From: Talaromyces rugulosus
Taxonomy: Eukaryota; Ascomycota; Eurotiomycetes; Eurotiales; Trichocomaceae
Direction: 5' to 3'
Assembly (NCBI RefSeq): GCF_013368755.1
Contig: NC_049564.1
Coordinates: 2,426,001-2,490,000 of the forward strand
Length of the DNA: 64,000 nt
A program made the position numbers and the translations under genes. Within the stretch, counting starts at the first letter, position 1. The number at the start of each line of letters is the position of its first letter. Shown piece after piece: positions 1-21,377 of the stretch. Under the pieces are notes generated by a model. It worked only from the letters and a program-made list of their open reading frames with translations, was not told the origin of the DNA and did not search any database.

Positions 1-50
1 TCGATTTCCCTACTTTTAACAATCCAGGGGTCAAAGAAATACATGAATTC

Positions 51-1273: not shown

Positions 1274-1512
1274 AATAGTTCAGTTGAATGATGTGAGATA
1301 GTATTTCTTTCGATTAATCTTCTATTGTGGTCACTATCGTCTTTATTCATTACTAATATCGCTCCAGTAGAAACATATTACTAACAGTCTTATAATTCAC
1401 TATTCTCAGTCCCTATGTATTCTTCCTGGATGCTCTTCTAAAACATATCTTCAAGCCCAACCCTTGGATTAATGACAGTGACATTATTAATAGTACAAAC
1501 TGCTAGAATAAA

Positions 1513-1888
1513 TTAATAAAGGTTACAAATAGTACAATTCCGCCATTTCAGGCCAACGCTCATTCCTAGGCATTTCCCCTTGGCTTTTGTCCATAAACAG
1601 TCACACTGTAGTCCAAGACTGTTGGCTAATATTGTATGAGCATATTTGGCCTTCCACTTACGCCTGCCAGTATATATGTGCGTGTCTTGCCTCTTCGCGC
1701 AAAGCAGCAAGACAGAGTTCCACTCGTTCCAGTCCGATAATAGGCGCAATTATACCAAGGCTCAACCCTTGGATTTCTTCCTCGGAATTCTGACGAACCA
1801 TGAGGACTAAATCCTCGGAATTACCGTCCAATGCATAAAGAGGCCACTGATTAACAACTTCTTTAGTACCAACAAAATGTCCATCCAT
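1513..1888 (-). CDS. Small uncharacterised two-exon gene or gene fragment
   Basis: A minus-strand reading frame 1888-1662 continues after a 43-bp intron (5' GTAAGT, 3' CAACAG) into 1618-1513, giving about 110 residues with phase preserved. The second exon is Cys-rich near the end (LQCDCLWTK, RNCTICNLY). The frame stays open upstream of the first ATG at 1888 to about 1939, so a 5' exon may be missing or the gene may be truncated. I do not recognise the family and propose no function. It could be a remnant of a longer cargo gene. Confidence 0.3.
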
Positions 1889-2527
1889 CAAATATCGTAC
1901 CTTGGTAATGGCTCCGTTTATTGCGGCACATTGCGGCACTCTTTATAATTAACAGACCATTGTGTGCTATGTGTTTATATATCAAACATCAATATCAATG
2001 ATAGACACAGCTGATGCACTTCCAAACATTGATTTTAGATAGTAAACTAATAATAAATACTTTATGCCTGTATTAATTTACATGTTAAAGCCACAGAGCA
2101 CAGTAGGTTGGGTGCCAACCTTCCATAAATTTACATAAAACGACCAATACCAGTAGCAACAGAATTGGAATATGTCTATGGTCAGGGACAGCACCCCATC
2201 CCACAGCTGATTGCCACATCCATGGAATGTTCTGAGACAAGTTTGCGTGGGAGGGCATATAGAGAGTAATATTGTTACTGTAGAAATAATAAAATCATCC
2301 AGTACATAGTAGAATTTCATGAACTTCTATCGCACATGAGCCCTCACACTAGTTGGCTGCATCTGGAGATCCCTTGACATAGAAAAGAGCACTTGATCTA
2401 GTCTTTCTTGTTGATGATTTGTTTAATAGGATGGCCGATTAGCCAGCAAGCCGCAGGCAGGTAGAAAAGGAACTTTGATTACATATCGGCAAGACCTTTT
2501 GTATTTGGCGACAGTTCCCACCCTGAC
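1889..2527. other. No gene seen
   Basis: AT-rich stretch between the small gene and the 3' end of the DUF3723 gene. Only short frames without recognisable composition or splice structure; nothing supported. Confidence 0.5.
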
Positions 2528-4825
2528 TTACTCAAGAACCGCATGTCTAACTAGCGTTGTTTGTAACAGTTCCGTAAAGCTATGTCGGTAAACTCTTTCT
2601 TTGTCCGTTACCACGAGAAGCCTTGTCTCCTTTGCAGCTTCGACGGCTTTACCACGACGCCAAGTTACACATTGTTGGCCATCGGGGAATGTAAAAAAGC
2701 AGCATGGATTCTGCGATCGATTTATCACAGCCTCTTCAAGAGCTTGAAGACCCTCTGATGATAGGGAAAATTTAGCATAACTTCGATTTGAAAGATCGAA
2801 CAAGACAATCGGCTTCCGTCTGCTGGCCTGGAACGTTGCCATCGTGGACTGCATCGTATTTTCATCCATTGGCTCCAGTTTATGGAATGTCTCCATAGAC
2901 AGGGCGTTTAATTCAAAACCAGGAGCAAGCTCGTAGTCATTCTGAGTAATAATAGTCGGTTGACCGGGAGTATCGATGTCTCTTGAATATTCACTAGAGG
3001 CTTGTCTAGACACTAAGTGTTCGGTAATCTCGACTGCCTGTGACGGAGTGTCACTGTTTGGCCGGTCTATATGAAGTTGCAGAGTCAACTCCTTAACATC
3101 ACCAAAGAACCCAAGGCAGATGTCACGGTGTATGGCCATCGAAGTAACATTTGCCTTCGGGCGCACTGTGTATTCCTCAAAGATGATGGGAAAGAAGAGG
3201 TAACGTCTGTCGTTATCGTACGCATTACTGAAAGGACGCCCACATCTTCGATTCAACGCATAGTCGCCGAAATCGCTCGTTGTGAGTTTCAACCGCGGAG
3301 GATCCATACCAGTAGCGGTGGCGTAGCTACTTGAGCAATGGCCGCGTAAGCGATGAATGGTATTATTCTGAAAGCCCAGTGTAGAGGCAAGATACGCGAG
3401 GCGGTGGAGGCTAGCAGTGCTCCTGACTAGCGGTGTTTCCGGAGAAGTGTGCCGATCATCCAGTTTCGGAGGGGTCCCGGTCAACGACGGTAGGTTTCTC
3501 ATCGCGTACAAGTATAACTGGCACAACGCAACCTTCCAGCCACCTGACTGGCACGGAAAGAAACCGATAGTGTCCTCATTTATCTCACACGGGATTCGAT
3601 CAGTGCCGTTGAATATCCGTCGGAAGTTTTGTCTTAGTGTTCCCTGTTTGTTCCCATCGAGTAGGAGCTGCAGAACCTTGACACATTCGTAGAGGTACCG
3701 GCCGTCCTGCTGGAAAAGATGAAACGATGGAATCCTACCGCGGACCGACTTCAAAGAGGCCAATATACCATCGCGGTCTCCATCATCCGTGATAGCGGTG
3801 AATAAAGCACATTTGGTCATTTTGGCCTCGATTTTCATCCTGTCCCGAGTTGAATAGGAGGGCCATAAGCCTTGCAGCTCTCTAACTGTTTCTCCGTCTA
3901 GAAGTTGTTGAAGCTCTGGTCGAGGGAGAATAGACTGCCAAATACGAGCCATCGAACGAAGATAATTTGCCAATTCCTAGTTTTTCCTGTTAGAAAAAGA
4001 AAACTTCGCCCAAGGCTAACCGCGGACTGACTTCAGGGCATGCCATGTACGCAATCCTGTACAAGTTGCCAAATTGTATACCACATTTTTTGCCTGGCCA
4101 TAGCCCAGTGAAAGGCAGAAGCTGGTCAAATGCATCCGCCAGTGGCCTCACTCTGTACACCCGAGAATAGGCTTCGTCGCCATTCCGAGCCCTTAGTCGC
4201 GCCTTCCATCTCTCTACGCCTTCATGATTGCCGCTCAACTCGTACCGGCGGAGATTTCGAAAAATCTCCCCGTCACTGAATGGCACAGAATTGACATCTT
4301 CCTCGCGGATGGCCGAAATGTGCGGCCCAGGGAGATCTTTTATTGGTTAGATGGACCTCAAGACGGAATTGTAGCCATACCTTTGCTGTATAGATTGACC
4401 ACCCACCATTTCTCACCGGAATATAAGCCCATACTTGAGTCACCAGCTGGCGCTTCTTCTTCTTCTTCTTCTTCAGCCTCGACGATCTTAGACGCCGCCA
4501 CGATTCTGTGATATCCCGTGAGCAATTCCACCTTGGCGCCTTCCGGAAGCTCGAGCCATGGCGGTTCTTGTCGTTCATGTAGAGAGGCCAAATTGGATAA
4601 TTGGAGCGCTGATTTAAAATTATTTTCCGATATGAGAGCAGAGACACGGTTTTCTGGGTCCAGAGGGAAGCACCCGTGCTCTTTAAAGTCTTTAACCAGA
4701 CGAGAGACGTTCAAGGGGTCCAGTTGCCTTGCAAAAGGGGCAAACTGATCATACGTAAGACTGCTCAGTTTGATTTTTGCACATCCTCGGAAAAAGGTTT
4801 TAAATGAATCGCCAAGTTTAGACAT
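2528..4825 (-). CDS. DUF3723 protein, intact (Starship-associated family)
   Basis: Three exons on the minus strand: 4825-4381, 4336-4032 and 3976-2528, with 44- and 55-bp introns; phases agree and give 732 residues. Family features seen in order: N-terminal CAKIKLSSLTYDQF and RLVKDFKEHGCFPLDPENRV, then LTGYHRIVAA and WWVVNLYS at the end of exon 1, SDGEIFRNLRRYE and FDQLLPFTGLWPG in exon 2, and CPEELANYL across the second splice. DUF3723 has no established biochemical role but is one of the families recurrently carried by fungal Starships, which agrees with the captain 12 kb away. A run of Glu codons (GAA/GAG) near residue 117 is a small expansion. The protein shows no frameshift or premature stop, so it may still be expressed. 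Confidence 0.85.
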
Positions 4826-4956
4826 TTTGGTTTAGTCAAGAAATATTATATCCGGGAAGATTGTCTTTATATAGCTTTAGGATGTGGTGATTGCTGGATC
4901 CGGATAAACGGATCCTAGGAACTTGGTAGCTTTGACTACGTACATAATTGAAAGTA

Positions 4957-5640
4957 TCATTCCTGACTGCTCCGGTACTCAAAAATCTTTTCCAATGAAC
5001 GTTGTAGTTTCCCCACACAGTCCTCAATATCCATGACTTGATTGGAGATGTCCACAAGTAACGTATCCTCAGTGACTACACAGATCCGAATCATATCACT
5101 TGCCCATTCCCGTGGATAGCCTTTGAGTTGGATTTTTCTGTGCACCGTTTTCATAGGCGTGCTCTTGGACTTACGACACACATCTGCGAGGTTTTGGAGG
5201 AAGTTGACGTCGATACCCTCCTTTTTCAAAGTAGCTTCCACCATCGTGTTTTCTGGGTCACGAAATAATTTCTGGATATGGGGTGTTAGGGCGTTGTAAC
5301 GCATATTGGCTTTTTTTTGACGTCGTAAAAGTTCGTTGGGAATTCGTTTTCTCTCTGAGACATCCGTGGAGCTGTCGGATTCAGAGTACTCCTTCGACAT
5401 TTCATTACTCATCGAAGCTTCCTCTTCGCTCGTGAAGCTATCATCGTCGAAATACTCATCAACAGGAGCCGTGGATGGGCCACTAGTGCCCGATTTTCCT
5501 AGGTAGGCCTTGTAACCGCTGTCTTCTATTTTCCGGTTCAACTCGTCCATCATTCTCACGGCGTTTCGGGATATAGCACTTTCCCTGTCTGGGCTTGCAG
5601 AGAGCGAGTATTTTTGATCAGATATTTTGGGTGAAGTCAT
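4957..5640 (-). CDS. Uncharacterised acidic/serine-rich protein, 227 aa
   Basis: Single open frame from an ATG at 5640. The first 100 residues are low-complexity, rich in Ser, Asp and Glu (for example EYFDDDSFTSEEEAS), then a basic stretch RKRIPNELLRRQKK, then a more ordinary, probably helical C-terminal half with KLFRDPENTMVEATLKKEG and a late hydrophobic segment. No family recognised. It lies 131 bp upstream of the DUF3723 gene on the same strand and downstream of a pseudokinase gene on the same strand, within the Starship cargo. It might be a partner of one of these, but that is only proximity. Confidence 0.5.
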   Translation of the reverse strand: MTSPKISDQKYSLSASPDRESAISRNAVRMMDELNRKIEDSGYKAYLGKSGTSGPSTAPVDEYFDDDSFTSEEEASMSNEMSKEYSESDSSTDVSERKRIPNELLRRQKKANMRYNALTPHIQKLFRDPENTMVEATLKKEGIDVNFLQNLADVCRKSKSTPMKTVHRKIQLKGYPREWASDMIRICVVTEDTLLVDISNQVMDIEDCVGKLQRSLEKIFEYRSSQE

Positions 5641-5805
5641 GTTGGGCCTGGGATATTGAATGGCTGAAGAGGGAAGGGGGCTATTTGGCTGTTTAAATGG
5701 TTGTTATTGAACTCTATTGTTTGTCGATTCTCCAATTTTCCGGAAATCTGGATTCTACACTACCGGATACCAGTAACAGTGTGGAAATGAACTCCAATTA
5801 AAATC

Positions 5806-6732
5806 CTACATGAGGACCCGCAAAGTTTTGAATTTAGTTTTCACCGTGATCCTGACATGAGGAATGAGAGACGCTGGGCCGGTTGATTTTCGGATAAAGT
5901 CATGGGTCACAAGGGACGTAGCCCTAAGGTGATCTAGCCCATCTTGAAAGTTTCTAGTATCTTCTGTCCACCCTGAACCCAATTCCATCAGTTCACGCAA
6001 AACAAGCCCAAATGATCTCAAATCTTGCTGTTGGCGCCCAGAGTCCGACTGGAACATGCCGTTCGCAATGTTTGCTAGGGCAAGTCAGCAAATACCGTGA
6101 AACAACAAGATCGCGTACCTATTTTGACATGCCCAGTACCAGAAACCAATAAGTTCTCATGGTCAATGTTTCCATGTGAAATTTGAAGGGTTTCATGAAT
6201 ATATTCTAAGCCACGGACAACCTGAGATGCGGTCAAGATTGACTTCTTCTGATCGGAAAGGGTGTCTTACCTGCTCAGCAATGGCTGCAATTTCATTCTC
6301 CTTCAACGAACCTGACATACCACCTTCGATGTCTCCAAGTGATACATGACTGGCATCCATGTCCTCATAGATTAGGAATACGATGTCATGATCCATATAT
6401 ACGTCCAGAAGGTTAACCAACTGGATATGTTTCGTAGGTTTCAGAGCCTTTAGACTGTCTTTATCTGTTACCTTATGCTCCTTCACGGCCACAATTGTAT
6501 CTTTATCCCTGGCTGCGATAGCACGCCCGGCCTGATCTTCTTCGACAAAGCGTTGATACTTGCCCCACGGCACACCTCTCTTTAGCGTAACTGGAAGGTG
6601 GTTTGGGCTCCGTAACGCTGGATGCGGCTGTTTACTCTCATGCTCTTCGTTTTTTCTCTTCAGCGGTACACGAATACTAGGTTCAGTTGACCCATCGTGC
6701 CCGCCAGGGAATAGGGTCAGTCGATTGTCCAT
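5806..6732 (-). CDS. Protein pseudokinase, three exons, 277 aa
   Basis: Exons 6732-6271, 6221-6119 and 6074-5806 with 49- and 44-bp introns; phases agree. The frame above 6732 has no ATG, so MDNRLTLFPG is taken as the start. Kinase landmarks: the ATP-binding Lys in TIVAVKEH, a hinge-like VFLIYEDMDAS, a helix E-like RGLEYIHETLQ, then the catalytic loop reads HGNIDHENLLV, where a catalytic Asp would be expected at the Asn. The following activation segment (HVKIANIANGMF) has no DFG. So it keeps the Lys but lacks the catalytic Asp and the magnesium-binding Asp, and is predicted to be a pseudokinase. The protein is short and ends soon after a helix F-like region. A related but HGD-containing fragment lies at 8941 on the other strand with an intron at the same codon. 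Confidence 0.65.
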
Positions 6733-6840
6733 TATTTTGTTAATTCTTCTCCTCGTATGCCAGTTTTGCGTCTTGAAATAGGTTCGAGACACAAACCTGG
6801 GGGGTCACAAAGCCGGATTTTCCACGGAACCAAGGATCTC

Positions 6841-7112
6841 ACTTTAATAACACTTTAATAATATTTTACTCTATTTTAATTGTACTTTAATCACACTTGA
6901 ATATACTTTAACCACATTTTAATTTCATTTTAATCCCACTTTAATCCTACTTTAATCCCACGTTAATCCCACTTTACTCATACTTTAATCACACTTTAAT
7001 CACACTTTAATCACACTTTAATCACACTTTAATCACACGTTAATCACACTTTAATCACACTTTAATTACATTTTAATCATAACAACACACTTTAACTACA
7101 CTTTAACCATTA
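6841..7112. repeat. 11-bp tandem repeat (ACTTTAATCAC unit)
   Basis: About two dozen copies of an 11-bp unit, most regular between 6981 and 7070, degenerating to both sides. The ten-base blocks in that stretch shift by exactly one base each, which fixes the period at 11. The array lies about 110 bp upstream of the pseudokinase start and just past the end of the MADS-like gene, so it sits in the likely promoter of the pseudokinase. Confidence 0.9.
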
Positions 7113-7120
7113 CTCTTCAA

Positions 7121-7582
7121 TCAATTCTTCTCACAATCATCCGCCAAAATGGTTGTCGAGGCCCTGATATCTTTCCAGTTTGGTGGAGTCAACTCCTTTC
7201 TTCTTTTTTGTGAGGGATTAACTTTGTAGTGCCAAACTGGAGGTGCGACCGCAACAGTTTTTTGAATATGTTGAGTAGATTTCTGGCTAGGATTCTTTCT
7301 TAGCTTGAAACACGCAGTCTTGCTTACTCCAACACAAGGGCCCTGCAACAGTCAGTATGAATACAGAAATAATGTGGAAGATATTACCAGTGTTGAGTCG
7401 GGAGGGGGGAATGAAGATCCTTCAGTAGAGTTTAAGGTAAAATATTTTCCATCTTTCAGTATGCATGCATATATATCGGCTCCGAATATCTCATGGAGTT
7501 CCATGAGTTTGTTGTAAAGGGTTGCAGTCCGCTTCTGCCAGCTCTGCTGGAGTTGTTTCTTTTCGTTGTTAGGAGGCATCAT
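7121..7582 (-). CDS. MADS-box-like (SRF-type) small DNA-binding protein
   Basis: Exons 7582-7388 and 7342-7121, intron 45 bp (GTAATA..TTGCAG), giving about 138 residues from the first of two tandem Met codons. The body resembles the MADS core: WQKRTATLYNKLMELHEIFG followed by ADIYACILKDGKYFTLNST, matching the pattern R..TL..K..EL...CGADV...I...G.YYTF. MADS proteins bind CArG-like AT-rich sites; here the usual basic N-terminus is weak and Cys is replaced by Phe, so binding is uncertain. The tail (HKTV..PSQKRRKE) is basic. An open frame continues upstream of the chosen ATG and may belong to a separate, damaged gene or to a longer version of this one. Confidence 0.5.
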
Positions 7583-7590
7583 GGGCAGGA

Positions 7591-7935
7591 AAATTTGTGG
7601 GAAGTTATCATTGAGTCGGAACATGGAGGAGGTGCCCAAGATATTTGCACCGGCTGGAATGCAATCATAATCTGAAACATGATCTGAAACGAAACTTAGC
7701 TGAATATGTCCCAAATGATTGGCCAAATCTCGATACGATCGCCCGTCAAGCCCTAATCGACTAGCCTAATTGCGGTCATCCCAGCTACTCCCTGTTAGCA
7801 ACTTAGCCAATGTCGGATGTCCTTTGAGCTATACATCTCCATAACCTTTTTTAGTTCTGCCTCGAATTTCCCAGGAGTACCTGGTAGCGGGACTGTTTGC
7901 TTATCCCGTCTTAATCGATATAGGATGGGAAACTC
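7591..7935 (-). pseudogene. Coding-like remnant upstream of the MADS-like gene
   Basis: A minus-strand frame beginning after a good acceptor at 7935 (GCTAAT branch-like, then GTCAG) reads EFPILYRLRRDKQTVPLPG and KFEAELKKVMEMYSSKDIRHW. A further open frame (LDGRSYRDLANHLGHIQLSF) follows and runs into the MADS-like frame. Joining them needs a poor GTTGCT donor. The amino-acid composition looks coding but I do not recognise the family. Either upstream exons of the MADS-like gene or the wreck of another gene. Confidence 0.3.
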
Positions 7936-8317
7936 CTGACCTTGGTTGGATTAGCATTAATGATATTTGATCTAGGGTGAAGCTATTCTATACTGATATT
8001 TGTTTCCTTAAAGGTATTTTCTGCCTCCCGGATGCGGAAAATCTCATCTAGTATTTCTGATATCTCTAGGGGTGTGATTGTAATCTTCTTGGTAGCTTTT
8101 TGGAACTCGTTTATGGTAATACCGTTAATGTATATTATGTGGACCAATAACTTGATTTGGGCTGGACCTTGTAAGTCTTATAATCTGTTTTCAGGGAATG
8201 TCTTACTTTCTATGACTAGATAATCTGGTTTTCTATGCGGCACATCCTTTGGCCACTAGTCAGGCTTTATCTTCTTCTTGCATGTATGTGGGTGGTGGAC
8301 CTGTTTTCGGGACTTAA

Positions 8318-8657
8318 TCAGATTAATAAAATTGGTTGCGAGCGACAGTGGTTGTCTTTTTTGAGTAGGGGGAAGGCAAAGTTATAAAACTTGGTCATCT
8401 CTCCCCTATTGTTGATTTTCAGCAACGCGATAAAATCCTCATCTTCAGTTTCGGGTGTGGCCGAACGGATAGATTCCTCAGCTTTAGAGTCGGAGTATTC
8501 GGTAGAACTGAAGATGCTGGCTTGAAGGCCCTTTACTTCGACCTCATATTCTCCAGTACTTGATGATGGAGTGAGAGGGTTCACCGACGGATTGACGTAT
8601 GAGAATTGATGTAGAGAACTGTACGGACCGTTGTCAATGTCTGTTGTGTCATTTTAT
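8318..8657 (-). CDS. Unrecognised acidic open frame, possibly a gene fragment
   Basis: An open minus-strand frame from about 8657 to a stop at 8318 with coding-like composition (SSSTGEYEVEVKG, ATPETEDEDFIALLKIN). There is no ATG at its 5' end, and the surrounding 8660-8900 contains stops in the matching frame, so a complete gene cannot be built. Probably a remnant lying between the MADS-like gene and the kinase fragment. Confidence 0.25.
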
Positions 8658-8940
8658 GGTACCTTTTGTAGTGGTTTTTTGACATCCATGAATTTCTTAG
8701 ATGTGGGAGGTGAAGATATTGCTTTTCGTCAGTAATGGGTCTCTTAAACGCAATATCCTCCTACCAGGTGTCTCTTCTTTATCTGATCTGAAGCTGATAG
8801 TCTTAGTGTGAGGGTCAGCGCTATGAGAATCGGCTTCTGGTTCGAAATTGTTGTTAGCTGAGAGGTTGAGAAATGTCTGTAATGAATGAACTGTTAGGAA
8901 GTACTTTAAACCTAGTATTTTCCGCGAGTACGGTAGATAG

Positions 8941-9151
8941 ATGCTGGAATATTTTATTGTATTAGTAATGGAGGTCTCCTTAGCGCAAGTTTTTGCGACA
9001 CCTCAAGGATGTCTAAGACCTTATGAGGTAGCAGCATTCTCTACGGAAATTTTACAAGGGCTCCACTACATCCACAGTGAGCTGCGAATCGCACACGGAG
9101 ACCTGTCAGCGGAAAATGTTCTCGTCTCAATGAAAGGAGATGTGAAGATAG
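8941..9151 (+). pseudogene. Truncated protein kinase fragment (catalytic-loop region)
   Basis: An open frame reads EILQGLHYIHSELRIAHGDLSAENVLV and then KGDVKIG. The catalytic loop has the Asp (HGD) that the pseudokinase at 5806-6732 lacks. A potential donor G|GTAAAG follows KI, at the same codon as the third-exon boundary of that pseudokinase, so the two are likely paralogues. Downstream of the donor the sequence changes to Ty3/gypsy integrase; no second half of the kinase follows. No upstream kinase N-lobe was found either. So this is a piece left after the retrotransposon inserted or recombined here. Confidence 0.6.
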
Positions 9152-9199
9152 GTAAAGGTGTTCCAGTCTACATTCCTGGCCCTACTGACCAGTCAAAGC

Positions 9200-10114
9200 A
9201 AATATGTAAAGCTGTCGACAGCACGGCATGCCCAGACAGATGGACAAACAGAGATAGCGAATCAGTATCTTCAGCAGCGGCTGCGGCCATATGTTAACTT
9301 TGCAATGGACGACTGGTCGGAGTACCTACCAATCATCGACTTTGCAGCTGCGTCACTGCCACAGGAATCTACAGGGATGTCCCCATTTGAGATAGAAAAG
9401 GGTTATGCTCCTCGGATGTCGTTTGATTGGGCGCCACCAACGCCGCCTAGAAGCTACACACTGAACGAGAAGGAAGCCCGAGCATGGGTACAGCGTTTAG
9501 AGCGCATATGGGACCACGCCCGCAATAATATTGCGGAAGCACAAGGCAGACAGCAACGGCAAGCGAACAAGCGCAGACGGGAGATAGACTTCGGAGTTGG
9601 TGACCACGTCTACGTCAGTAACGAAGGATGGGATACAGGACGACCAGGCAGGAAGCTGGGCCATCAGTCCGAAGGGCCATACAAGATACTGCGTAAGATA
9701 GGACATGCCTTTGAATTGGATTTGCCGCAGGGCGTACGAGTGCACCGTATCTTTTCCCCGGACAAGCTCCGCCGCGCCGCTTCGACCGAGCCCCTCGCTG
9801 GTCAACTGGAGGAGGAATGTCCTGAGCTCCAGGTCAACGGAAATTCGGAATGGGAAGTCGACAGGATCCTGGACTCCCGGATGCGCTGGAAGAAGCTGTG
9901 CTATCGAGTAAGCTGGCTAGGCAGGGACCCAGATCCAGTATGGTATCCAGCAGGGTACTTTTCGAACGCTCCACTGGCGCTGAAATCGTTCCATGATGCC
10001 AACCCCGAGAAGCCAGGTCCGCCGCGCCGGTTGGATGCGTGGATGAAAGCCATGGAGGAGGATCGATTTGTTGAAGAGCATGCAGATGATGACAGACCGG
10101 CAACCAACGCTTGA
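9200..10114 (+). pseudogene. Ty3/gypsy pol remnant: integrase end plus chromodomain
   Basis: The frame from about 9200 reads KLSTARHAQTDGQTEIANQ, the hallmark region around the integrase catalytic domain of gypsy elements, then LRPYVNFAMDDWSEYLP, ESTGMSPFEIEKGYAP, the GPY/F-like stretch KLGHQSEGPYKILRKIG and a chromodomain (WEVDRILDSR, YRVSWLGRDPDPVWYP). The upstream catalytic Asp residues and all of reverse transcriptase are absent. The frame is otherwise open to the stop at 10112-10114, so degradation after truncation has been slight. Its first codons are fused in frame neither to a Met of its own nor to the kinase frame. Confidence 0.85.
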
Positions 10115-10142
10115 GGGCAAGCGTTTCCGAAGGGGGGGGTGA

Positions 10143-10416
10143 TGTGACGGCTGAGCCTGAGGCTATCCCCAAGGGTAGGAGCGGCCTCGTGGCCGGATGG
10201 GAGGCCTCAGGCAGGAAGGGCATCAACCCTAACCCGCGGTGCCAGATCTGGGGATAGCCTCACCCCGGGGCCATAAGGGGTCAAGCTGGTTACCTAAGCA
10301 CACAAGATAAAACCTTCCCGCAGGTCCTGGTAGTTAGATTCCTTTCCCATGCTTGTTGTTTTAGAGAATCGCACCCCTAGATAGGAATCGAATATCTTTG
10401 GAAAAGGCACGTCACA
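10143..10416 (+). repeat. 3' LTR of the truncated gypsy element
   Basis: Begins TGTGACGGCTGAGCC and ends GGCACGTCACA, with matching inverted termini TGTGACG/CGTCACA. About 274 bp. The same sequence occurs reversed at 13973-14266, confirming both ends. Confidence 0.85.
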
Positions 10417-10558
10417 CTGGGGTGAGGCTATTCCCAGATCTGGCACCGCGGGTTAGGGTTGATGCCCTTCCTGCCTGAGGCCGCTTTCTGCCTGAGGCTT
10501 CCACCCGAGGTAGCTCCTACCCTTGGGGATAGCCTCAGCCTCAGCCCCAGCCGTCACA
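10417..10558 (-). repeat. Partial inverted copy of the same LTR, abutting the 3' LTR
   Basis: Reverse-orientation LTR sequence from TGGGGTGAGGCTATTCC to CCGTCACA, missing the roughly 150 bp on the other side. Together with 10143-10280 it forms an imperfect palindrome with arms of about 130 bp separated by the U5-side of the first LTR. Confidence 0.8.
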
Positions 10559-11331
10559 AAATTAGATCTATATTATAATTAATAGATCTATATTATCTTT
10601 CTAATATATTACTTATTTAGATAGTATATTATTCTTAAAAATATTAATAATAGTTAAGATTTTCTATTTATCTAAATCTATTTAATTATAGTATTAGTAA
10701 TTTTGTAGTGGAGAGAGACTAGAGTCGCCCGATCATCTGTTGGAGATGGCAAAATGAACCGCTTCTCCCTGTGTTTCGACGCAACCATTGAGTCTGGTGA
10801 GCTACGGGCTCTTGAAAAGTATATGGACAGAAATTGAAAATTTCATGGTATGATGCTTAAAATAAACTTTGAAATCTGACAAAAGTGATTAAGTTGTAGT
10901 GTTATCGACGGCATTGAAAGCATAGCAACAAGACCGTTCATATCGACACCTAGAGAGAATGAACACATAACTAGCCCTGTTTCCGAATTTCATATTTGTA
11001 GCAATCCTATACTATTTTGTATAGAGACGAGAGCGCCGTAGAATCCCCTTGCCCCTTCTGTGGCCATACGTTCAGCTCGCCTGTGTAGCCGTAAACCGTT
11101 CCGATACCGTGGTGTGTGGTGGTCACGGAAGTCATCTGGAAGTACTTTGAACGGATTCTAAAATAGATCTACCACCGTATTCGAATCGGGTTGGGCCATG
11201 ATGATGAAATCATCAATATGGTGGATATGGATGCAAAACTCCCAAGATCCATCATTGAGTTCAACTCTGCTCACAAGATGTGAAAAACGGAATATTTTTT
11301 CAACATCTGCGGCTCAAGGTGTGACACACCG
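10559..11331. other. AT-rich stretch without a recognised gene
   Basis: The first 150 bases are almost pure A/T with short repeats (AGATCTATATTAT-like), as expected of repeat-induced mutation or an old repeat. The rest is mixed sequence with only short frames. Confidence 0.5.
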
Positions 11332-11956
11332 CTATACTGTCTTTGATTCACATGCGGGTTCCTTAGAGGAACGATGCTCAGGTCTCATCCAGGGGTACGA
11401 GACCTTACACCATTCAACAACGCCATGATGGGGCAACCGATATCCATACGGATCGCGCCGGACAGTTGTAATCTCTCCATTTTTGTGCTGTTCCCGCACC
11501 GGAGGGCATCCCTTGGATTTCATAAACCGGGATAAATTGCTTGAGATTCCGGTCACAGTGCGATATTTGCGGGAGGGAAACTGCCGACGATAGGCATCGA
11601 TACATTTGCTCCAATCCATACCAAGATCAACGCGATGGTACCAGATAAAGTGCATCTCGTCCTCATTGTAATTAGGGCCGCGTTGGCTATGTCCTCTAGC
11701 AGTTGATTTACTTCGAGCACTGTCAAAGTTGTTGTAACGACGGTCCGTAGAGCCCTTGTTCAAGCTTTATGTACGAATCCCCAAGTCAGCTAATAAACTA
11801 GATAATGAGATTTCTCTAAGAGGGAATCTATTCTCTCGAGGTCATGGGATTAACATACCAAAGTGAAGTATAAAGATTTGCTGGCAGAACATCCAGCTGT
11901 GTCTTTGGTGCCGGGTTCAGCAGTGCGCCGATGGACATTTTTTTGGCAGTCGACAT
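11332..11956 (-). CDS. Small Myb/SANT-like DNA-binding protein, 176 aa
   Basis: Exon 1 is 11956-11859 and starts MSTAKKMSIGALLNPAPK; exon 2 is 11764-11332; the 94-bp intron has GTATGT and ..ATAAAG ends with GCTGAC as branch-like site, and phase is kept across the join. The central segment NYNEDEMHFIWYHRVDLGMD followed by WSKCIDAYRRQFPSR and a later KGCPPVREQ resembles the Myb/SANT-like domain common in small fungal proteins (Trp/acidic start, ..FI.YHRVDL....W....F...FP..R). It would act as a nuclear DNA- or histone-binding factor. The first aromatic of the motif is changed, so the call is at the family-resemblance level. Start chosen because the exon 2 frame lacks an ATG before the domain. 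Confidence 0.55.
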
Positions 11957-13087
11957 GGTGTTTGGATATGAGAGCAATTATGAGAGTCTTTTGGAGAAGT
12001 TATGGCTTCCTGGGTGAGGAGAGGGCCCTTTTCGACATCAAGGCTGACGGGGAAAGAAGGGTTGAAGAAGCCCATTGGGTTGACCGAGATAAGCACCTGG
12101 CGAAAGTTAATTATAGAAAAGCAATTCGCAGTTACTACTCAGGGAATCTACTTTTATGCAATCTATTTGCATTAGCTGCACCGGCTAGACGGAAGCCGAG
12201 ACCCCTATTTCACTGAATATCACTACATGTACTTGTTGAATTACTCTGGCACGAGGTCTAGAACATCTGATCGACATCGCAAGGGTAGTCCAGCGTTTTA
12301 CGGCCACGGCTGAACCAATGCCAGCGATTGCATTGACAATGTTGTAGACGCGACGGGCTAGATCGCCCGATCATCAGGAGACACAGCAGAGAGTGGTAAT
12401 TAAGCTTTACAATAGAAACAGGACAGAGGGGCATGCTCTCTTCTATACTGGTGCGTCTATACCCTGATGGACTGGTTCGCATTAATCGAAGTGCATGGAG
12501 TTTGCTTCTCAAAGTTGGGGACCATATGGATGATAAAAGTGCGCCTTTTTTGGGGTAAGGCTGGTGGGGCAGATTATATGTTTGGTCCCACATTTGTGAT
12601 TGAGATTGAACCGACCAGTAAATTTACCAGTGCATCATGCTATTTGTTATTGGACATGTTTCACCGTCAATGCGCGATATTATTTTAGCAATGGAAGGTA
12701 CATGCGATGCTGTCCCGAGTCCTATTCAGCCCCCACACAGGGGTAAACATGATAGCAAATATTACAGGCTAGCATATGTAAGCCAATCTCTAGGTGTAAA
12801 GTTGATGGAAAAAGAAACTCGCATATTACTAGTTCATGACAAGAGTTTTCCTTGTTGCCGCTGCACCATTTTGACATCTAGACCGTTGTTTGGTTCTGAA
12901 GCGAGTACTCTAACCAGAATCAGTCAGCTCGTGCGACTTGCACTTGTGACGGATATTATTATCTTATTTCAGTTGCGTTGGTTAATTCTGCAAAATAGGG
13001 GTTCGTATTTTACATTTAAAAGGCCCAACCACAGTAGGTGATATATCTTTCGTTCATCGACTTCAATATTCCAAGGCAGTCTTGTCA
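11957..13087. other. No gene supported
   Basis: Several short open frames on both strands (for example 12637-13041) but none with a recognisable domain, splice structure or continuing phase. May contain old cargo remnants. Confidence 0.45.
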
Positions 13088-13678
13088 ATGATAAATTATC
13101 CAGTTACAAACAGCCCGACTGTCTATCCGGAAATGCCTGATACCAGTTATGTGCCATCTCCACACCCCGAGATCGATCCAGTTCTGTTGCAGAATGGCAT
13201 GAGCCAACCGAACTCCACGAACTATGACAATTCAGCAGCACAGAAGACCGTTCACCCGATTGTATCGACCAGTTCATCTCAGCCAAGTTACAGTCAAAGC
13301 TTTCCTCAGCAATGTGTCCCACTTATGCCGGCTCAGGATGAGCGGTACATAGGTCTTCCATGTCTACTATGTTTTTTGAAGGGAACCGGGGAAGTAAGGA
13401 AAGAAACCCTGCTCAGAAAGTTCAATGCTAATACTTTCTAGGAATGTGATGATGGAAACCCTTGTATTCCTTGCAAAAAGTTCCAGTTTCCGTACTGCTC
13501 ACTTCAGTTTCCCGATATGCTTCACAACGTTTTATCGAAAAGCGAGATATCGTTCAGATCAGGGTGTCATTCCCACCTCAAAATGGTGTACGGAAAACTT
13601 CATGTTGCAGGTAAAAGAATTGATTATCTATTTGATATTCTTTTCAATGAGAAATACCAGCATGCCACAAAAAAGTGA
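13088..13678 (+). CDS. Small protein with variant Zn2Cys6-like cysteine cluster, 182 residues
   Basis: Exons 13088-13393 and 13442-13678, intron 48 bp (GTAAGG..CTAATACTTTCTAG). Splicing joins CLLCFLKGTGE to ECDDGNPCIPCKKF, creating a six-cysteine array C-x2-C-x8-C-x6-C-x2-C and a further Cys in PYCSL, close to the fungal Zn-cluster spacing but with the usual basic residues after the second Cys missing. The N-terminal 90 residues are Ser/Pro/Gln rich (STSSSQPSYSQSFPQQ), as in many fungal regulators. There is a continuous frame to the stop at 13678. Likely a nuclear regulator; DNA binding is doubtful without the basic residues. It sits next to the Myb-like gene with opposite strand and about 1.1 kb between starts. 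Confidence 0.5.
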
Positions 13679-13972
13679 GCTTGGGTACTTGGGTCGGGAA
13701 TGAGAAATGTGGAATGGATGTATAGTCATTCATGGGGTTATTTCAAGGGAATATGAGGCTTATTCCAAATACGATGTATTAATTTGTCTAATATATCATT
13801 GCTGCAGTGTCCATAGTCAATTTTCACTCGGTATAAAAGATGTCAACGAAGGAAGCAATCGAGTGTCCAGTATAACTGTTTTACAAATTCGAATGTGAAA
13901 GGATCAGTTCTCCTACCGCACGTCAGCTCAACCGTTGAGAATTAACAAGGACATGATAGACAAACATAGACC

Positions 13973-14266
13973 TGTGACGTGCCTTTTCCAAAGATATTGA
14001 TTTCTATCTAGTAGTGCGGTTCTCTAAAACAAAGCATGGGGAAGGAATCTAACTACCAGGGCCTGCAGGAAGGTTTTACCTTGTGTGCTTAGGTAACCAG
14101 CTTGACTCCTTATGGCCCCGGGGTGAGGCTATTCCCAGATCTGGCACCGCGGGTTAGGGTTGATGCCCTTCCTGCCTGAGGCCGCTTTCTGCCTGAGGCT
14201 CCCACCCGGCACCGAGGCAGCTCCTGCCCTTTGGGGATAGCCTCAGCCTCAGCCCCAGCCGTCACA
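13973..14266 (-). repeat. Solo LTR of the gypsy family, reverse orientation
   Basis: Full-length reversed LTR running from TGTGACGTGCC to CCGTCACA, matching the LTR at 10143-10416 in reverse complement. No internal retroelement sequence flanks it. The adjacent five bases (AGACC left, CCGAG right) do not form an obvious target-site duplication. Confidence 0.85.
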
Positions 14267-15123
14267 CCGAGCCCCAAGCCCTTGTTTTTCACCAACCTAC
14301 AAAATTAGTGACTTTATATAGTAGTTCCAATACTAGTTATTTTCCTAGAGCTTTACTTGGGTTCTACACTCGATATGTCGAGCTGATCACCATCATAATA
14401 GGGTGTCATGTCCAGTACGTCTTCCCCCGATGTCCGATACCAATCACCCGCGCAAGAGGGTTGTGCAGTCAGCTACAGGTGACTATCGTAACATCCAAGG
14501 AGGAGCACGAGCGGAACCGCAGGCAATGTCTACAAGCCTCCAACTAAGCGACCCGTAGGCACTAGATCAGCTCAGTCAAGCTCCAGTCATCGATCCACGC
14601 ACACACCTCCTGTATATGACAGTCTCTTCTGGGATCAGCAAGCTCTTGCGTCTGTCACTTCCGGAGTTTGGTCTTGAATTAGGGTCTCTGCTCCGCAGGG
14701 AGGTGATCTTTGCAACAACAAACAAGTTCTTTCAATCTCGATTTTGATGGGGATACTTGTACCCTTTCTCACAGGAGGTTGGCAATTTTGTCGATTCTCC
14801 CTTTTTCATAGATTCGCCTGCCGCGACCAAACGCCTCTAACGTTAATCAAGACTCGAAAAACCGGTGGTGGCGAGAAGGGGGCCCCGAAGGAGGAAATTG
14901 ACAAAATCTAGGATGACACTGACATCAGCAACCTCGCATTTTAGATCATCCGTATAGTTCAGCGGCAGCGAGCCGCGTGGATAGCGAGGCAAAAGGACAC
15001 CTCGGGGCGAACCATACGAAGAAAGACCGATCTCATTACAGCTGAGGGAGTTGACAAAACTCCCTTCAAGTCCATTTCGAAAGAGCTCAATGATGTGGAA
15101 GGAGGGGGTTCAGAAAACTCCAT
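14267..15123. other. No gene supported
   Basis: Mixed-composition sequence with short frames only. The right part (14900-15100) has coding-like stretches interrupted by stops, probably a decayed gene. Confidence 0.4.
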
Positions 15124-15900
15124 TCAGCATATTGAGTTTGTGAACTGTATGCAGAAAGTGCCGTCGCGGGGACAAAAGAAGGGAATGCCGACATTTACGA
15201 CTACAGTCGTATTGATATTGACATATTTTTTTGGAATTTTCCCTATCAGGGTATTTATGGCCTCCTCAAGCTGCTGTTTAGTGAAGACCCGCGGGTAGAT
15301 TCCTTTAGATTCACGTCGAAAAAGCCCTTTACGGTCGAAACAGGTGCGAGAGAGCGCCGGAAGGGATTGCTCTTCGCGCGAAAGAGCACTATCGAGCGGG
15401 TTTACCAGGATATGACCTCCGCTGTGGACATACCCCATCAAACAACACAGAAACAGGGTGGATGAAATACACGGGCTTGTTCTTCCAGAAGGGGTTATCA
15501 TCATGGGAACCAGTATACGAGTACCGCCTTCCAAGTCTTTTCACTATAAAATCGGGTTTTAAATTCAAGTAGACTTCATTCTTGAGATAGAGGACTACTT
15601 TAATACCCCACTCTACTCCATGAAATTGCAATATTTTTTCATAACGCCCATCATATTTTTCCCGTGCGGATGGTATTCACATCCAAACTTTTATTTGAGT
15701 AATAACGTATTTTTTTGGAGTTTATCTTCAGCGACTTGTTTCAAGACCTTAATAGCTAAATGAGGATTTTCGGTAAGAACGGATTTTGCCTTGTCTTGCG
15801 CTAAGAAATATTGGATATGAGTTGTATCAGCTCTCGTGAGGAGGAGTGGAGCACCGTATCTCCACAGCAAATTCCGCGAAGTTCTTTAACGTCCAGTTTG
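15124..15900 (-). pseudogene. Frameshifted remnant of an unrecognised gene
   Basis: Reading on the minus strand: a coding-like piece TRADTTHIQYFLAQDKAK near 15850-15750, then KKYDGRYEKILQFHGVEWGI and KNKPVYFIHPVSVLFDG near 15660-15430, then in another frame GYVHSGGHILVNPLDSALS, RTCFDRKGLFRRESKG and FTKQQLEEAINTLIG down to about 15230. The change of frame at about 15425 fits a single-base indel, and the first part is separated by stops. Each piece has strong coding character, yet I do not recognise the family. A broken cargo gene downstream of the captain. Confidence 0.4.
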
Positions 15901-16971
15901 AACTTATCCAATCGATTATCCTAGTTGTTGCAAGCTATTGGCGCAAATATCAGCGGACAAAAACGACTCCCTAACTGCTTGCAGGGAACTCCCCAAGTGT
16001 GGATCGCAATTTACTCAGACGAGCATGGCATTGATATTGGCAACAAGGATGTGAACACTTTGATACTTTCAATAAAACAGTCAATGTGCCGTATGATCGC
16101 CATAGAGTTGATAAATACCATTGAACCCCAGAAACAGACCAGACCCTTACAAATTAGGCAAGGAAAGAAAGATAGCCCACTGATGTTCTATGTATAGAAC
16201 TAACTCACGTTCACAAAAAATATATGTTCAACTCCTATTTAAAGGCCTATTCACTTATAGGTTCAGATTAAATTAAATTATTTCTTCATTTCAAACAAGA
16301 TCTTAATCTCCCTAATATCAACATAGAAATACTCCAAAAAGCTGCCAAAAATCTATCCCCAGTAAAATTACAACTACTTAATGATATTTTCCTTATCAAA
16401 ATAATACAAAAAAGACAATGCGCTGAAATAATAGATTAACCCTTAAAACTCAAAATCATTAGTGCTAATCCAACTAAAATCCAACTACCTTTAATGAAAG
16501 TAAAGGAACATCAAAATATCTAAAGGAGAGGATAGAAGATCCTGTATTACAGCTAAGTTCTTACAACAAATGCGGAAGTGATTCATTTCACTTAACCAGG
16601 ATCAATGCTGCTTGTCGAAATTCGATAGAAGTTAGGAATTCATAGAGAAGGTCAAAGGAACTGAACAACTCAACAGTTATTCCGATTAATGATTCTGACA
16701 CCCCCTCATGATTTATGACTTGAAGAGCCTAGATCAAAAGCTATAATCTACGTTATTTTACTAACTAATAATAGAGTTATGTCGGTAAGCCTTTTCCTTG
16801 CAACCGACAACGAGCAACGTGCTCAATATCGAGAGGAGCATGATGTGCGGTATCGTAAAAAGGAAGAATTCCAGTCTTTTGGTAATTCTTTCCAATCCCA
16901 CAGTCCGTCCCGCCCTGGTTGAATGAATATTCTCTCTCGGGGTAAACGACCCTGGCGCGGTGCCACCGGCT
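15901..16971. other. AT-rich gap downstream of the captain gene
   Basis: Largely A/T-rich (16200-16560 especially), with no open frame of coding character. The captain's last exon ends at 16972, where GC content rises sharply. Confidence 0.5.
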
Positions 16972-19900
16972 TTAATCTGAAGGGTTGAGGAGTCGGCCCA
17001 TCTCTGCGGTTTCCTCCAGGATCCGACGAGCCTCTTCCTCGTCGACCAACAAATCTTCCTGCACGAGCAGAGAGAGCAGCTCAGGGAGGAGAGCCACCTG
17101 CGCCACGATCAAAGGGCTTATACCTGTCCCCAAGCGGGCTGCCGCGGCACTGTCGCTTATCGTCTTTCGGAACCGGCTCATAACGTGATCCAACCTAGGG
17201 AGTCAGTATCCACCGCTGTTCAAGTGATCAAAACATACAGTAATTCCACGCCACGGGGGCCATAATAGCCAGCATGGCTAAGACGGCATTGGGCAGTCAA
17301 TTGCCATGCCTCTTGCGGGGTCTCGCGCTCCGTCGCGTCCGCAAACCGTGCGAGGTTCCCAGACTCCAGGATCTGATAGACCTGGAAATGGAACCGTGCC
17401 AGTCGAGCGTCCAGATCCTTCCAATCAATAATGGGTAAGCCTTTTGCAAGCCATTCGCGTTGCGCCGCGGTTCGACGATGAGCAGCGCACGATTCGAGCT
17501 GTTTCCGCACCGGGGCTGCCGCTACATCAAACTCAAGAGCTTTCCAGAAGCCCGCGTCAACAGCATCACCACAGACAGGACACCGCACGTCCTGATCTTG
17601 GGTTCGGAAAGACACGTTGTGAGGGGAAGGAGGGTCGACCGACGACCGGCAGGCAGTCTCTGCGGGAGTCGAAGGCACCGGCTTAGCTATAGAAACATTC
17701 AACGTGCGTCGTTTGTGAGGACGGCCTGGTTTCCTCGGGCCAGCCGTCGTTGTGTCGGAGAACGACTCCGGGGTCGATACCGAGAACTTGCGTTTCCGGC
17801 CTTTCCCCGTTAGACGGGCCGGTCCCTCGTCCGCCAGGCCCGCAGCACGCGTCCGTCGTCCGGTCATGAGATGGCAGTGTGTATCCTGCAGATGACATCG
17901 GAGATCCAGAACGGAGGTGAACGTGGAGGAGGCGCAGTGCCAGGTCTCGTGCGCCGGGCATCGGATGCACGCGCTCGCCTGATACTCTACCAGGTGCGCC
18001 TCGATATGGCTGCTGAAGTCCTTCTGGTCCCAGAACTGCCGCAATCGCGTGGCGGCCGACTTCGTCGTGTCGAGACGGCACCAGGGGCAGGTTCCTGGGA
18101 CAGCGAGGCTCTTTTCGAAGATCAAGAGACCCCACTGGACCGGCCAGTCGTCGGCGTCGAGATGCCCCTGGCAGTGCTCCTCCCAGTCGGCCTCGGCGGT
18201 GAACCACCGGGCACAGCCGAGCCAGCAGAACTGGGCGAAGCCGTGTCGCCGCTGCCGGTCTTTCCGACCACAGCCAAAGACGTGCCTCCAGCGCTCACGC
18301 GTTGACATCCTACGCTCGCTCGTCAGTCAGTCACCGTGCTTGCTCTCTGCCAGGTTGTCTACTCACTTTTCCAACGGCTTAGCACACGCTGTGACAGGGC
18401 AGCAGTTGCCGCGTGCCTCCAGACCGGGAATGTCGACCACCGGGGTCCTCCGCCTCGCCAGTGCCTCCATATCCTGCCACGCCGTCCGCGCCTCGGGCGT
18501 CCGAGGAGCGACCTCGAGGAACAACGAAGACGACAGTCGTCGCCGCTCGGGAACGAGGTGGCTGCTGCGGTCAAAGACGGTCCAATGATGATCGGCCGAT
18601 GCGCCTTCTAGCTCCCGGCCCGGGACGGCGTCAAGCAGGGAAGCCTGCCATGTCTTCAGGGTGGTTATCACGAGTTGGTGGCGTTTCCGGTACATGTTCT
18701 GACGGCGTGTTTTGTACTCCGAGCACTGGGTCCAAGGCGCCGTCTTCCTGATGAGCTCGCCCAGCGCGGCAAGCTCGTTGTCGATGGCCAACGCTTCCGG
18801 CGAGTATGCCAGGTCAAACTGCAATTTGGCCGGCAGGGCCTGCCACAGTCGCGGATGCCGCGGCAGCGACCAGCCGCGGAAGATATCCAGGTGGTCGGTG
18901 CGGCGAGTCAGGTTCTCGAAGATATTTTGAACCCCGTCCACGGTGCTGGTCGGGGAGGCATAACTCTCGAAGAACGTCCGTGGATTGGTGTGTGCCGCAA
19001 ACGTCATCCGTTCATCGACGGAATAGCCGTGCTCTGAGAGCCCCCATCAGTCGCCGTCATACACAGGGCGCCGAGGCAGGGGGGGAGAACAACTTACGGT
19101 CCGCCTTGACCAGCGCCTCCGCCCGGATATCATGGCCGGTGAAGTGCCTCGGATAGCCGGCACGAGAGCACAGTTTCTTGAGCTCGGTGAAGAGCCAGTC
19201 GGCCGTCAGGATCTCTCCGGTTGGGCCGCCCCGCGACATCTTCTCGAAAAACGGTCGATTGGGCTCCGTCAGCGCCAGCTGGTAGGGGAGGCCCTCGTTC
19301 GGACGCAGTGCGAAGATCTCGTCCACGGAGGTGAAGTCCCGGAATGCGTCCTGAGCCAGAGCGATGATGACCAGGTCCATCACCGGGTTGAGGTAGAGGG
19401 GCATCTCGCCAATATCTTCATAGACCGCGCAGCGCGGGCTGCGGTTGGGAGGCAACGGCGTCAGCAGTCACGCAGAGCTAGGTGTGGAGAAGCACCGGTT
19501 CACTTACTGTCTGTGTTTCTGCCTGGTCTGGCCCTTGGGATCCCGCTTCGCTCGAGAGAAAATCTCAGGCCGCCCTTTCCCGTTCTGGGCCACCAGGAAC
19601 AAGATATCCTACGGGAGCGTCTTGCGGTCAGTCTCGGTTCGACGGTATCCTCGTCTTCCACATTCTTCACTCACCGCGCGGTACATGCCCCGCCCCGAGG
19701 CTCTCCGTGAATTCGATTCCACGTACTCCCCGATCCGTCCCGATGAGAACATGAGGAGCTTGAGCAACGCTGACAGGTAGTGCCGGTAGATTGGATACTC
19801 AAACTCGTACCAGTCCTTCCCCCACAGCTGCGACAGCAGGACCTTGAAATGCTCTGTGGTTAGATATTTCCGTTGGCGGCGAGTTGTCCTGAGCGGCACT

Positions 19901-20445
19901 TTGTCGACCAGGATGTCCTGGATATACTGGTCGAGATCCAGTCAGCACGGTACGCGAGACATGCAGGGATTCCTTGCCCGCCTCCCGGACAGGACAGTTT
20001 GCCTACGTTCAAGATCGATTTGGTCATCCCTGCCTGGAGCCGCGTGTGTTTCTCGCGTAGATACATGGCCGAGGTGTCCTTCCAGGCCAGCATCACGGAG
20101 CCGACCGAGGGGTCATCATCCTCTGGGCATTGCGGTTGGATCCCCTTCGCGACCCATTCAATATAATGTTTGGCCGTCTGGTGGTCGTTCAGATCTTCGA
20201 CCTTGGTGCCAGGATGGGTCCGGCAGTAGCTGCAGATCGAGTACAGTGTCAGAGGCCATGTTTTCAGCACCACACCATCCAACAACTCACGTCAACCACT
20301 CCTCCCACTGTCTTTTATACCGGCGAGCCGTCCCCTCCTCTGGCTTGCGGTGCGCCGGATCGCTACTGATCGCGGTCTTGTCATCGTTAAACGCCCTCGC
20401 AGTCCGACGTTTCTGTCGTTCTTCTTCGGTCAGCTTTCTCCCCAT
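16972..20445 (-). CDS. Starship captain: DUF3435 tyrosine recombinase with C-terminal zinc fingers, 1010 aa
   Basis: Eight exons on the minus strand: 20445-20291, 20229-20007, 19926-19675, 19608-19508, 19438-19098, 19033-18367, 18309-17239, 17194-16972; introns 44-80 bp, all GT..AG, all phases consistent. The N-terminus (EEERQKRRTARAFNDD, YKRQWEEWLTYCRTHP) and core (YLTTEHFKVLLSQLW) match DUF3435 captains. Tyrosine recombinase residues: Arg in SSGRIGEY (about 190), His and Arg in GHDIR (about 346/349), His in AAHTNP (about 372), Tyr nucleophile in TFFESYASP (about 382). The C-terminal part has Cys/His clusters (CPWCRLD, CIRCPAHETWHC, CHLQDTH, RCPVCGDA) as usual for captains. Captains catalyse Starship excision and insertion. 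No internal stop remains after splicing, so the gene could be active. It is GC-rich compared with the cargo beside it. GTATGC-type donors and short introns fit the host gene structure. Confidence 0.88.
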
Positions 20446-20790
20446 TCTCGATAGACAGGAGCTGTATAAATCAATGAATATAATCTAAATCAAGTGAAAT
20501 AAGCTGAGTCGGGTTTCAAGAAGAAGAACCGAGACCTGGATTCTCCCCCTTCGCGCGAGCCTTTTATCCTCGTTCTCCCGTCGGCCGCCACGGTCCCAGG
20601 GACGCCAGCGTGCCACCCTCCATCGCGTAAAGTTGTCGATTCCTGCGTTTCAGCAGTTGCGTTGAAGAGCGACTGATCGGGCGGACAGGGGAGCGGCGGG
20701 TGAGGATGGGGAGCGGCGGGGTGAGGCATAGGGCGGCGAGCCGCACGCGCTAATCCGGAAAATGTCGACCCCCGATCTCTCTTGAACTAC
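20446..20790. other. Captain-side terminal region of the Starship
   Basis: GC-rich leader upstream of the captain start, with a TATA-like TATAAATC at 20471 region and two copies of a GGGGAGCGGCGGG unit near 20690 and 20710. At about 20765-20800 composition changes to AT-rich host-like sequence. In captain orientation the change is flanked by TTACATATGTAG (20787-20798), a TTAC-type sequence of the kind used as Starship targets, though it lacks the A expected eight bases after TTAC. Exact edge unproven. Confidence 0.4.
20688..20726 (+). repeat. Two-copy GC-rich direct repeat near the element end
   Basis: GGGGAGCGGCGGG followed by (G)TGAGG occurs twice in tandem. Such short subterminal repeats are frequent near ends of large transposons and could be recombinase-binding sites; this is inference. 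Confidence 0.5.
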
Positions 20791-21377
20791 ATATGTAAGA
20801 TATCAATTGATGCTATATTGGTTCACCTTTTTCATTCAGAGAGGAGAATTGATTGTTTTTTTATGCTGGTACAATACATGTTCTATCTTCGACACACACC
20901 TCCTGTACCTCTCCCCGATTCACAGCTTTTGTTCTTCAATGTTAGTGGTAAATGTACAACGAGAAGGAAGAAGACATCTTCCAGGTCATAGCCGCAGCCC
21001 CTTCTCCCTCTCTAGCAATCCTGTAAAATCGAATTGGTTCTTAACAAGAAAAAGAACTGATGTAAATAAAAATCTAATTATGAAAACAAAACGAAAAAAA
21101 GAAAAGAAACTCCGGGCAATGCACGTTCCTCGTTATAAAAGAATAAAAAGGAAGAACACGCTCTTTCTTTCTGTTATGCCAAACCTTTCAACCTCCATTA
21201 TTGAGTAAAACCAAGATGCAAGGACATAAACAGAAAGGAAACAATCATGAGAAGAAAAAGGTAGTAAATCGAATATGTACTGAAATCAAAGGAAGCTAGG
21301 CCGGTAACAAATGACACATGTCATGCCATTATTCAAGACTTCGACAGAAAGCAAAAAAAAAATCGAGCAGACTTTAA
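20791..21377. other. Host intergenic DNA downstream of pim1
   Basis: AT-rich sequence with A-runs; no gene seen. It should hold the pim1 3' UTR and the Starship insertion site. Confidence 0.6.

Follow-up and report, generated by a model that had tools for sequence, protein, structure and literature searches.

Starships are giant transposons with a published size range of 15–700 kb (accessible portions of PMC12134995 and PMC12289983). The accessible text of PMC12506042 places the Sanctuary captain, a recombinase, ~350 bp from the element edge and names DUF3723, FRE, PLP and NLR as Starship accessory families. Captain and Crypton recombinases are very distantly related, according to the available part of PMC12134995. 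Here, we examine a 64,000-nucleotide stretch of the Talaromyces rugulosus genome (35.76 Mb, 6 contigs), C4:2426001–2490000, which we call the window and number from its first base. In our best explanation, a recombinase gene at window positions 16972–20445 serves as captain to a giant transposon of the Starship type, ~133.3 kb long (C4:2313493–2446797) and inserted ~0.6 kb beyond a Lon-protease gene, and the tail of the recombinase (amino acids 823–1010) derives from a genomic RTC4 gene containing an intron. We assign this reading a probability of roughly 0.8; as a candidate Starship the element is new, and its apparently intact captain has an unusual make-up.

The captain gene and its product

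Independent rebuilding of the captain gene, by eye and by script, gives eight exons on the minus strand (20445–20291, 20229–20007, 19926–19675, 19608–19508, 19438–19098, 19033–18367, 18309–17239 and 17194–16972). The seven introns (61, 80, 66, 69, 64, 57 and 44 bp) are all GT–AG, with phases of 2, 0, 0, 2, 1, 2 and 2, in order, and the coding sequence comprises 1,010 codons with no internal stop. This model reproduces exactly the eight-exon gene proposed in a preliminary description of this DNA. It is already in databases and is not new, as a protein search found 100% identity over 1,010 amino acids to the NCBI prediction TRUGW13939_07649.

Pfam profiles identify two domains in the protein. 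DUF3435 matches amino acids 241–540 (39.5 bits, cut-off 25.8, E = 4.5e-10), bearing out the captain identity claimed in the preliminary description, and RTC4 (PF14474), which that description overlooked, matches amino acids 907–1008 (68.6 bits, cut-off 23.7, E = 7.2e-19). A Phage_integrase match at amino acids 326–384 falls below threshold (13.4 bits). The motifs GRIGEY, GHDIR, AAHTNP and ESYASP start at residues 189, 345, 370 and 380, and from these motifs only we assign the R-H-R-H-Y residues as R190 (codon at 19737–19735), H346 (19134–19132), R349 (19125–19123), H372 (18992–18990) and Y382 (18962–18960), a minus-strand span of 18960–19737. Consistent splicing, the lack of internal stops and the presence of all catalytic residues agree with the earlier claim of an intact recombinase, and the gene is, judged by its sequence, apparently intact.

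The captain is divergent. A full-length protein search returned one other homologue, Blastomyces percursus P0002 (ACJ73_04422), with 34% identity over 87% and with R190, H346, R349, H372 and Y382 all conserved. When the C-terminal and catalytic regions served as queries, only P0001 was returned, by a tool that requires shared five-residue words and missed P0002 both times. A PDB sequence search with the captain alignment gave no matches up to E = 1, and AlphaFold on the two-sequence alignment gave a model too poor for anything to be drawn from it (mean predicted local distance difference test score 37.3, predicted template-modeling score 0.24). One database names the protein by its RTC4 part, with a label beginning ‘Restriction of telomere...’.

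Possible origin of the RTC4-like tail

The name RTC4 abbreviates ‘restriction of telomere capping’, a yeast designation. The captain tail, amino acids 823–1010 (window 16972–17582, minus strand, interrupted by intron 7 at 17238–17195), is collinear with a host RTC4 gene at C1:1722516–1723152, with 34 of 130 and 26 of 73 positions identical (E = 1e-18). Apart from the captain, a PF14474 genome search (3 matches of 3 candidates) found RTC4 only at C1:1722741–1723146. Intron 7 of the captain, a phase-2 intron, separates GYYGPRGVELL from LDHV; at the matching place, a frame change in the C1 gene requires an intron ending at the AG at 1694–1695 of the stretch filed as L048. Two donors fit this intron (1641 and 1656 of L048), both giving phase 2, and with the former the match to the captain has no gaps. 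Because the tail is collinear with RTC4 and both have a phase-2 intron in the corresponding position, derivation of the tail from an intron-bearing RTC4 gene would be the simplest account, and the captain may have captured this host domain at the DNA level. We infer that the transfer ran from host to captain.

How old might such a fusion be? Collinearity of P0002 with the captain runs to amino acid 883, where the predicted protein stops, and takes in the beginning of the RTC4-like region. On balance, we lean toward a history in which the captain lineage took the RTC4 C-terminal domain at the DNA level and kept its intron, in a fusion old enough for at least its first part to be common to Blastomyces. 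The tail of the resulting chimeric recombinase might influence which targets are chosen, or link the element to the biology of host chromatin or telomeres. It probably acts as a zinc-stabilized DNA- or chromatin-binding module, zinc binding being our guess from a CPxC...CxxH pattern.

Alternatively, the captain may not have captured the tail, which could instead be an older zinc-binding recombinase domain ancestral to both proteins, or reflect exchange in the reverse direction. The modest identity of tail and RTC4 (only 26–36%) would suit such a history, as would protein searches that gave P0001 and P0002 alone. We nevertheless consider it rather unlikely, as the PF14474 search, at its sensitivity, shows no RTC4 at the remaining recombinase loci of the genome, and the captain intron matches that of the cellular gene in both phase and place.

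Edges and cargo of the proposed element

We compared the 355 bases upstream of the captain ATG (window 20446–20800) with the same genome and found 15 matches, including the window itself. Seven of the 14 non-self matches, at six places, start at query positions 3–8, which correspond to the outer end of a palindrome, TACATATGTA, at window 20788–20797. In the alignment, the exact palindrome stands beside differing flanks in the window, at C3:319160 and at C1:898845; a copy at C6:713701 has it with one mismatch, as two ends facing away from one common core, and the remaining copies are more decayed. Because related copies start at the palindrome with different flanks, we place the 5′ edge there, 342–352 bp before the ATG, a placement that is well supported. 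Between edge and gene lies a GC-rich 5′ terminal region (20446–20787, minus strand) that is repeated elsewhere in the genome. The edge shared with other copies, with host flank on its right, supports the leftward orientation given in the preliminary description.

Other 5′ ends show variations on this arrangement. At C6:713649–713804, two 5′ ends of the captain's element family stand back to back with one core palindrome in common, which looks like insertion of one element at another's edge. We dropped an initial reading of C3:303873 as an inverted end and tentatively reread it as another end oriented like the C3:319160 copy. No second intact copy of the captain was found in the genome; two copies on C3 keep recombinase pieces, and the better of these (L035) differs from the captain by 167 changes of the C>T/G>A type versus 8 in reverse. 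Classical repeat-induced point mutation is not shown as the cause of this decay, as only 56 of the 167 changes lie in a CpA/TpG context. The captain gene is intact while related 5′ ends elsewhere have decayed by C-to-T changes; the element may be recently active or still mobile, as the preliminary description suggests. A related pair of recombinase elements, at C5:580953–587202 and C6:4938868–4944922, is 98.4% identical over 3,411 bases and 99.2% over 1,139. These two share a 5′ edge, CTTGTCACAGACG, have different flanks and diverge after about 6–7 kb; we read them as one relative that was duplicated recently and has a different target.

The cargo side of the element occupies window positions 1–16971 and extends left to a candidate 3′ edge at C4:2313493. 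Open frames no shorter than 130 amino acids number 99 over C4:2346001–2447001; with Pfam we scanned 29 to the left of the window, some of them only in part, and eight frames within it. Many gave no match. The remainder include a gene for DUF3723, a Starship accessory family (window 2528–4831, minus strand, scanned as pieces 2528–3976 and 4358–4831); two NACHT-type genes (NPHP3_N, 107.9 and 118.8 bits), one adjoining a WD40 frame; a TPR-rich frame with DUF7779; patatin (33.4 bits); and FAD_binding_8 (36.8 bits, cut-off 22) next to a Ferric_reduct match under its cut-off (22.7 versus 28). HMG box, glycosyltransferase, DUF7580, subtilase, DDE_3 transposase and other matches were also found. DUF3723, FRE (with Ferric_reduct sub-threshold), PLP (patatin) and NLR-type genes are therefore all present in the block.

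The association of DUF3723 with recombinase genes extends across the genome. A PF12520 search gave 27 matches, which we merged into 10 DUF3723 loci, and recombinase matches were merged into 20 loci, leaving out the RTC4 gene and weak fragments at C3:5805865, C1:5300664 and C6:707695. Six of the 10 DUF3723 loci lie at most 40 kb from a recombinase gene on its inner side and none on the outer side; random placement gave a mean of 0.325 of 10 on the inner side, and none of 5,000 draws reached six. At 150 kb, eight of the 10 are inside and one is outside.

To the left, a core closely resembling that of the 5′ edge, TACATACGTA, occurs at C4:2313493, 133.3 kb from the 5′ edge, and is the sole core with at most one mismatch in the 8.8 kb read around the far end. 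The host side reads ATCT at both edges, and the joined flanks would form an 18-bp near-palindrome, ATCT-TACATRYGTA-AGAT. Across the 35.76 Mb, ATCTTACATAYGTA has five sites, two of which are the two edges, facing each other. Base composition, followed with fourteen 800-base probes left of the window, changes in the same area, with a GC content of 0.42–0.43 in all four probes at C4:2314001–2338800 and 0.51–0.58 in all four at 2282001–2306800. A protein-kinase open reading frame (46.0 bits) lies at C4:2306534–2309437. Just inside the candidate edge, one exon piece matches the p450 profile (30.7 bits) and two others have no P450 match; we read the cytochrome P450 gene as whole. We regard C4:2313493 as the probable 3′ edge, by a placement that is partly post hoc.

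Other candidate sites were considered and rejected. The core at C4:2332863 has the ATCT extension but lies inside a 233-amino-acid open frame that has no Pfam match (NLR-like by eye), and those at C4:2358261 and C4:2320786 lack ATCT. The bare 10-mer core has 351 sites genome-wide, so the 3′ edge is not locatable that way.

Several observations weigh against this reading of the gene and of its far end. At the gene, the DUF3435 match covers only part of the profile, and the captain is absent from the 25 matches of a genome search with PF11917, the DUF3435 profile (24 candidates scored). The host RTC4 splice donor is ambiguous between its two candidates, which, as we read the alignment, would weaken the case for capture. 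At the edges, TACATATGTA and TACATACGTA differ at one base, and a core alone with at most one mismatch is expected 0.55 times in 8.8 kb (from nine present in 144 kb); the DNA examined left of the captain holds three other such cores, at C4:2358261, 2332863 and 2320786, with C4:2322801–2346000 sampled in 2,301 of 23,200 bases. Allowing one mismatch, ATCTTACATATGTA occurs at 65 genome sites, or ~0.016 expected in 8.8 kb, a value that is indicative only, as the Y in the 14-mer was picked after seeing the site and the ATCT extension after the core. No second copy of the 3′ end was found in the genome, where other matches are 70% over ~160 bases of repeat. With the 3′ edge placed as inferred, the inner 150 bp at the two ends show no terminal inverted repeat better than shuffles (p 0.85); in the available text of PMC12153272, such repeats occur in 18 of 20 Aspergillus fumigatus Starships and are not universal. 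Finally, six probes farther left have GC contents of 0.43, 0.48, 0.50, 0.50, 0.42 and 0.45, with values of 0.42–0.45 at C4:2274001, 2242001 and 2234001; because values fall again there, GC is only a guide to the far end.

The inferred 3′ edge and the missing inverted repeat would suit an orphan DUF3435 recombinase gene that happens to border an accessory region, one that was assembled otherwise and that the gene does not mobilize. A sharp, repeated edge 350 bp upstream and the genome-wide position of DUF3723 genes on the inner side of recombinase genes make this improbable. Less likely still is a short Crypton-like element with little beyond its recombinase, beside unrelated accessory DNA: the near-identical copies at C5:581k and C6:4939k have only ~6–7 kb from the 5′ edge in common, which may mean that elements of this kind are short or swap their cargo, but no core with at most one mismatch occurs in window 1–20787 or C4:2406001–2426000. 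We return to a captain at the 5′ end of a cargo-bearing Starship. The preliminary description had placed an accessory region past the left window edge, and a low-GC block with Starship accessory families and a candidate far end is indeed there; of the far end and direct repeat it envisaged, the former has a candidate at 133.3 kb, while the cores of the latter are one mismatch apart.

Several features of the surrounding DNA are recorded here. A ~290-bp high-copy repeat at window 13973–14266 (minus strand) has relatives of 270–295 bp at about 40 genomic places. Because several pairs of copies elsewhere lie exactly 5,721 bases apart, we read it as a solo long terminal repeat (LTR) of an LTR retrotransposon family, with one or more solo LTRs inside the element. 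A cargo frame at C4:2350773–2351981 has ankyrin repeats and a match (76.7 bits) to SsdA_C, a C-terminal domain found in a family of single-strand DNA deaminases. Two frames of equal length (632 amino acids) on opposite strands, C4:2370362–2372257 (+) and 2392095–2393990 (−), adjoin NACHT genes, and the former consists of highly regular WD40 repeats. Outside the element, beyond Lon, DnaJ and BRO1 genes, window 59417–63301 (minus strand) carries a patatin piece and an NB-ARC/TPR NLR-type gene.

Comparison with described elements

In the mechanism we propose, a short, nearly palindromic sequence around TACATATGTA would be the recognition site of the captain. The captain would break and reseal DNA there as tyrosine recombinases do, each element end would be left with the core, and the tail, taken from the RTC4 gene, could add a DNA or chromatin contact. 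There are several implications if this is correct. First, a bounded Starship candidate of roughly 133 kb with an intact captain would be added for T. rugulosus. Second, it would suggest that captains, like cargo, pick up host parts, and an RTC4-derived tail would make it testable whether captured host domains alter Starship destination. Finally, because this captain falls outside the PF11917 matches and takes its database label from its RTC4 part, profile searches may miss RTC4-tailed captains. In the literature searched, with bioRxiv and most subscription journals outside it, we found neither a paper treating RTC4 and DUF3435 together nor one on Starships and their captains in Talaromyces.

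Like described Starships, the element has a DUF3435 recombinase ~350 bp inside its 5′ edge and reading inward, accessory genes and, at ~133 kb, a length within 15–700 kb; it differs in having no detected terminal inverted repeat and a divergent captain with an RTC4-like end. B. percursus P0002 has the same catalytic residues and collinearity but ends at amino acid 883, whereas the cellular RTC4 gene is collinear with the tail but has no recombinase part in the stretch read. The Tardis family of A. fumigatus, in the available text of PMC12153272, has a direct repeat of 9–11 bp and a target that is predicted to span 10 bp and to follow the pattern TAC..GTA (TACGGAGTAG), a pattern that the core described here resembles; the core itself differs (TACATATGTA or TACATACGTA), and the likeness is one of sites only. 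Cryptons, for which the accessible part of PMC12134995 proposes cut-and-paste movement, likewise use a tyrosine recombinase. By contrast, the captain described here comes with a large attached cargo.
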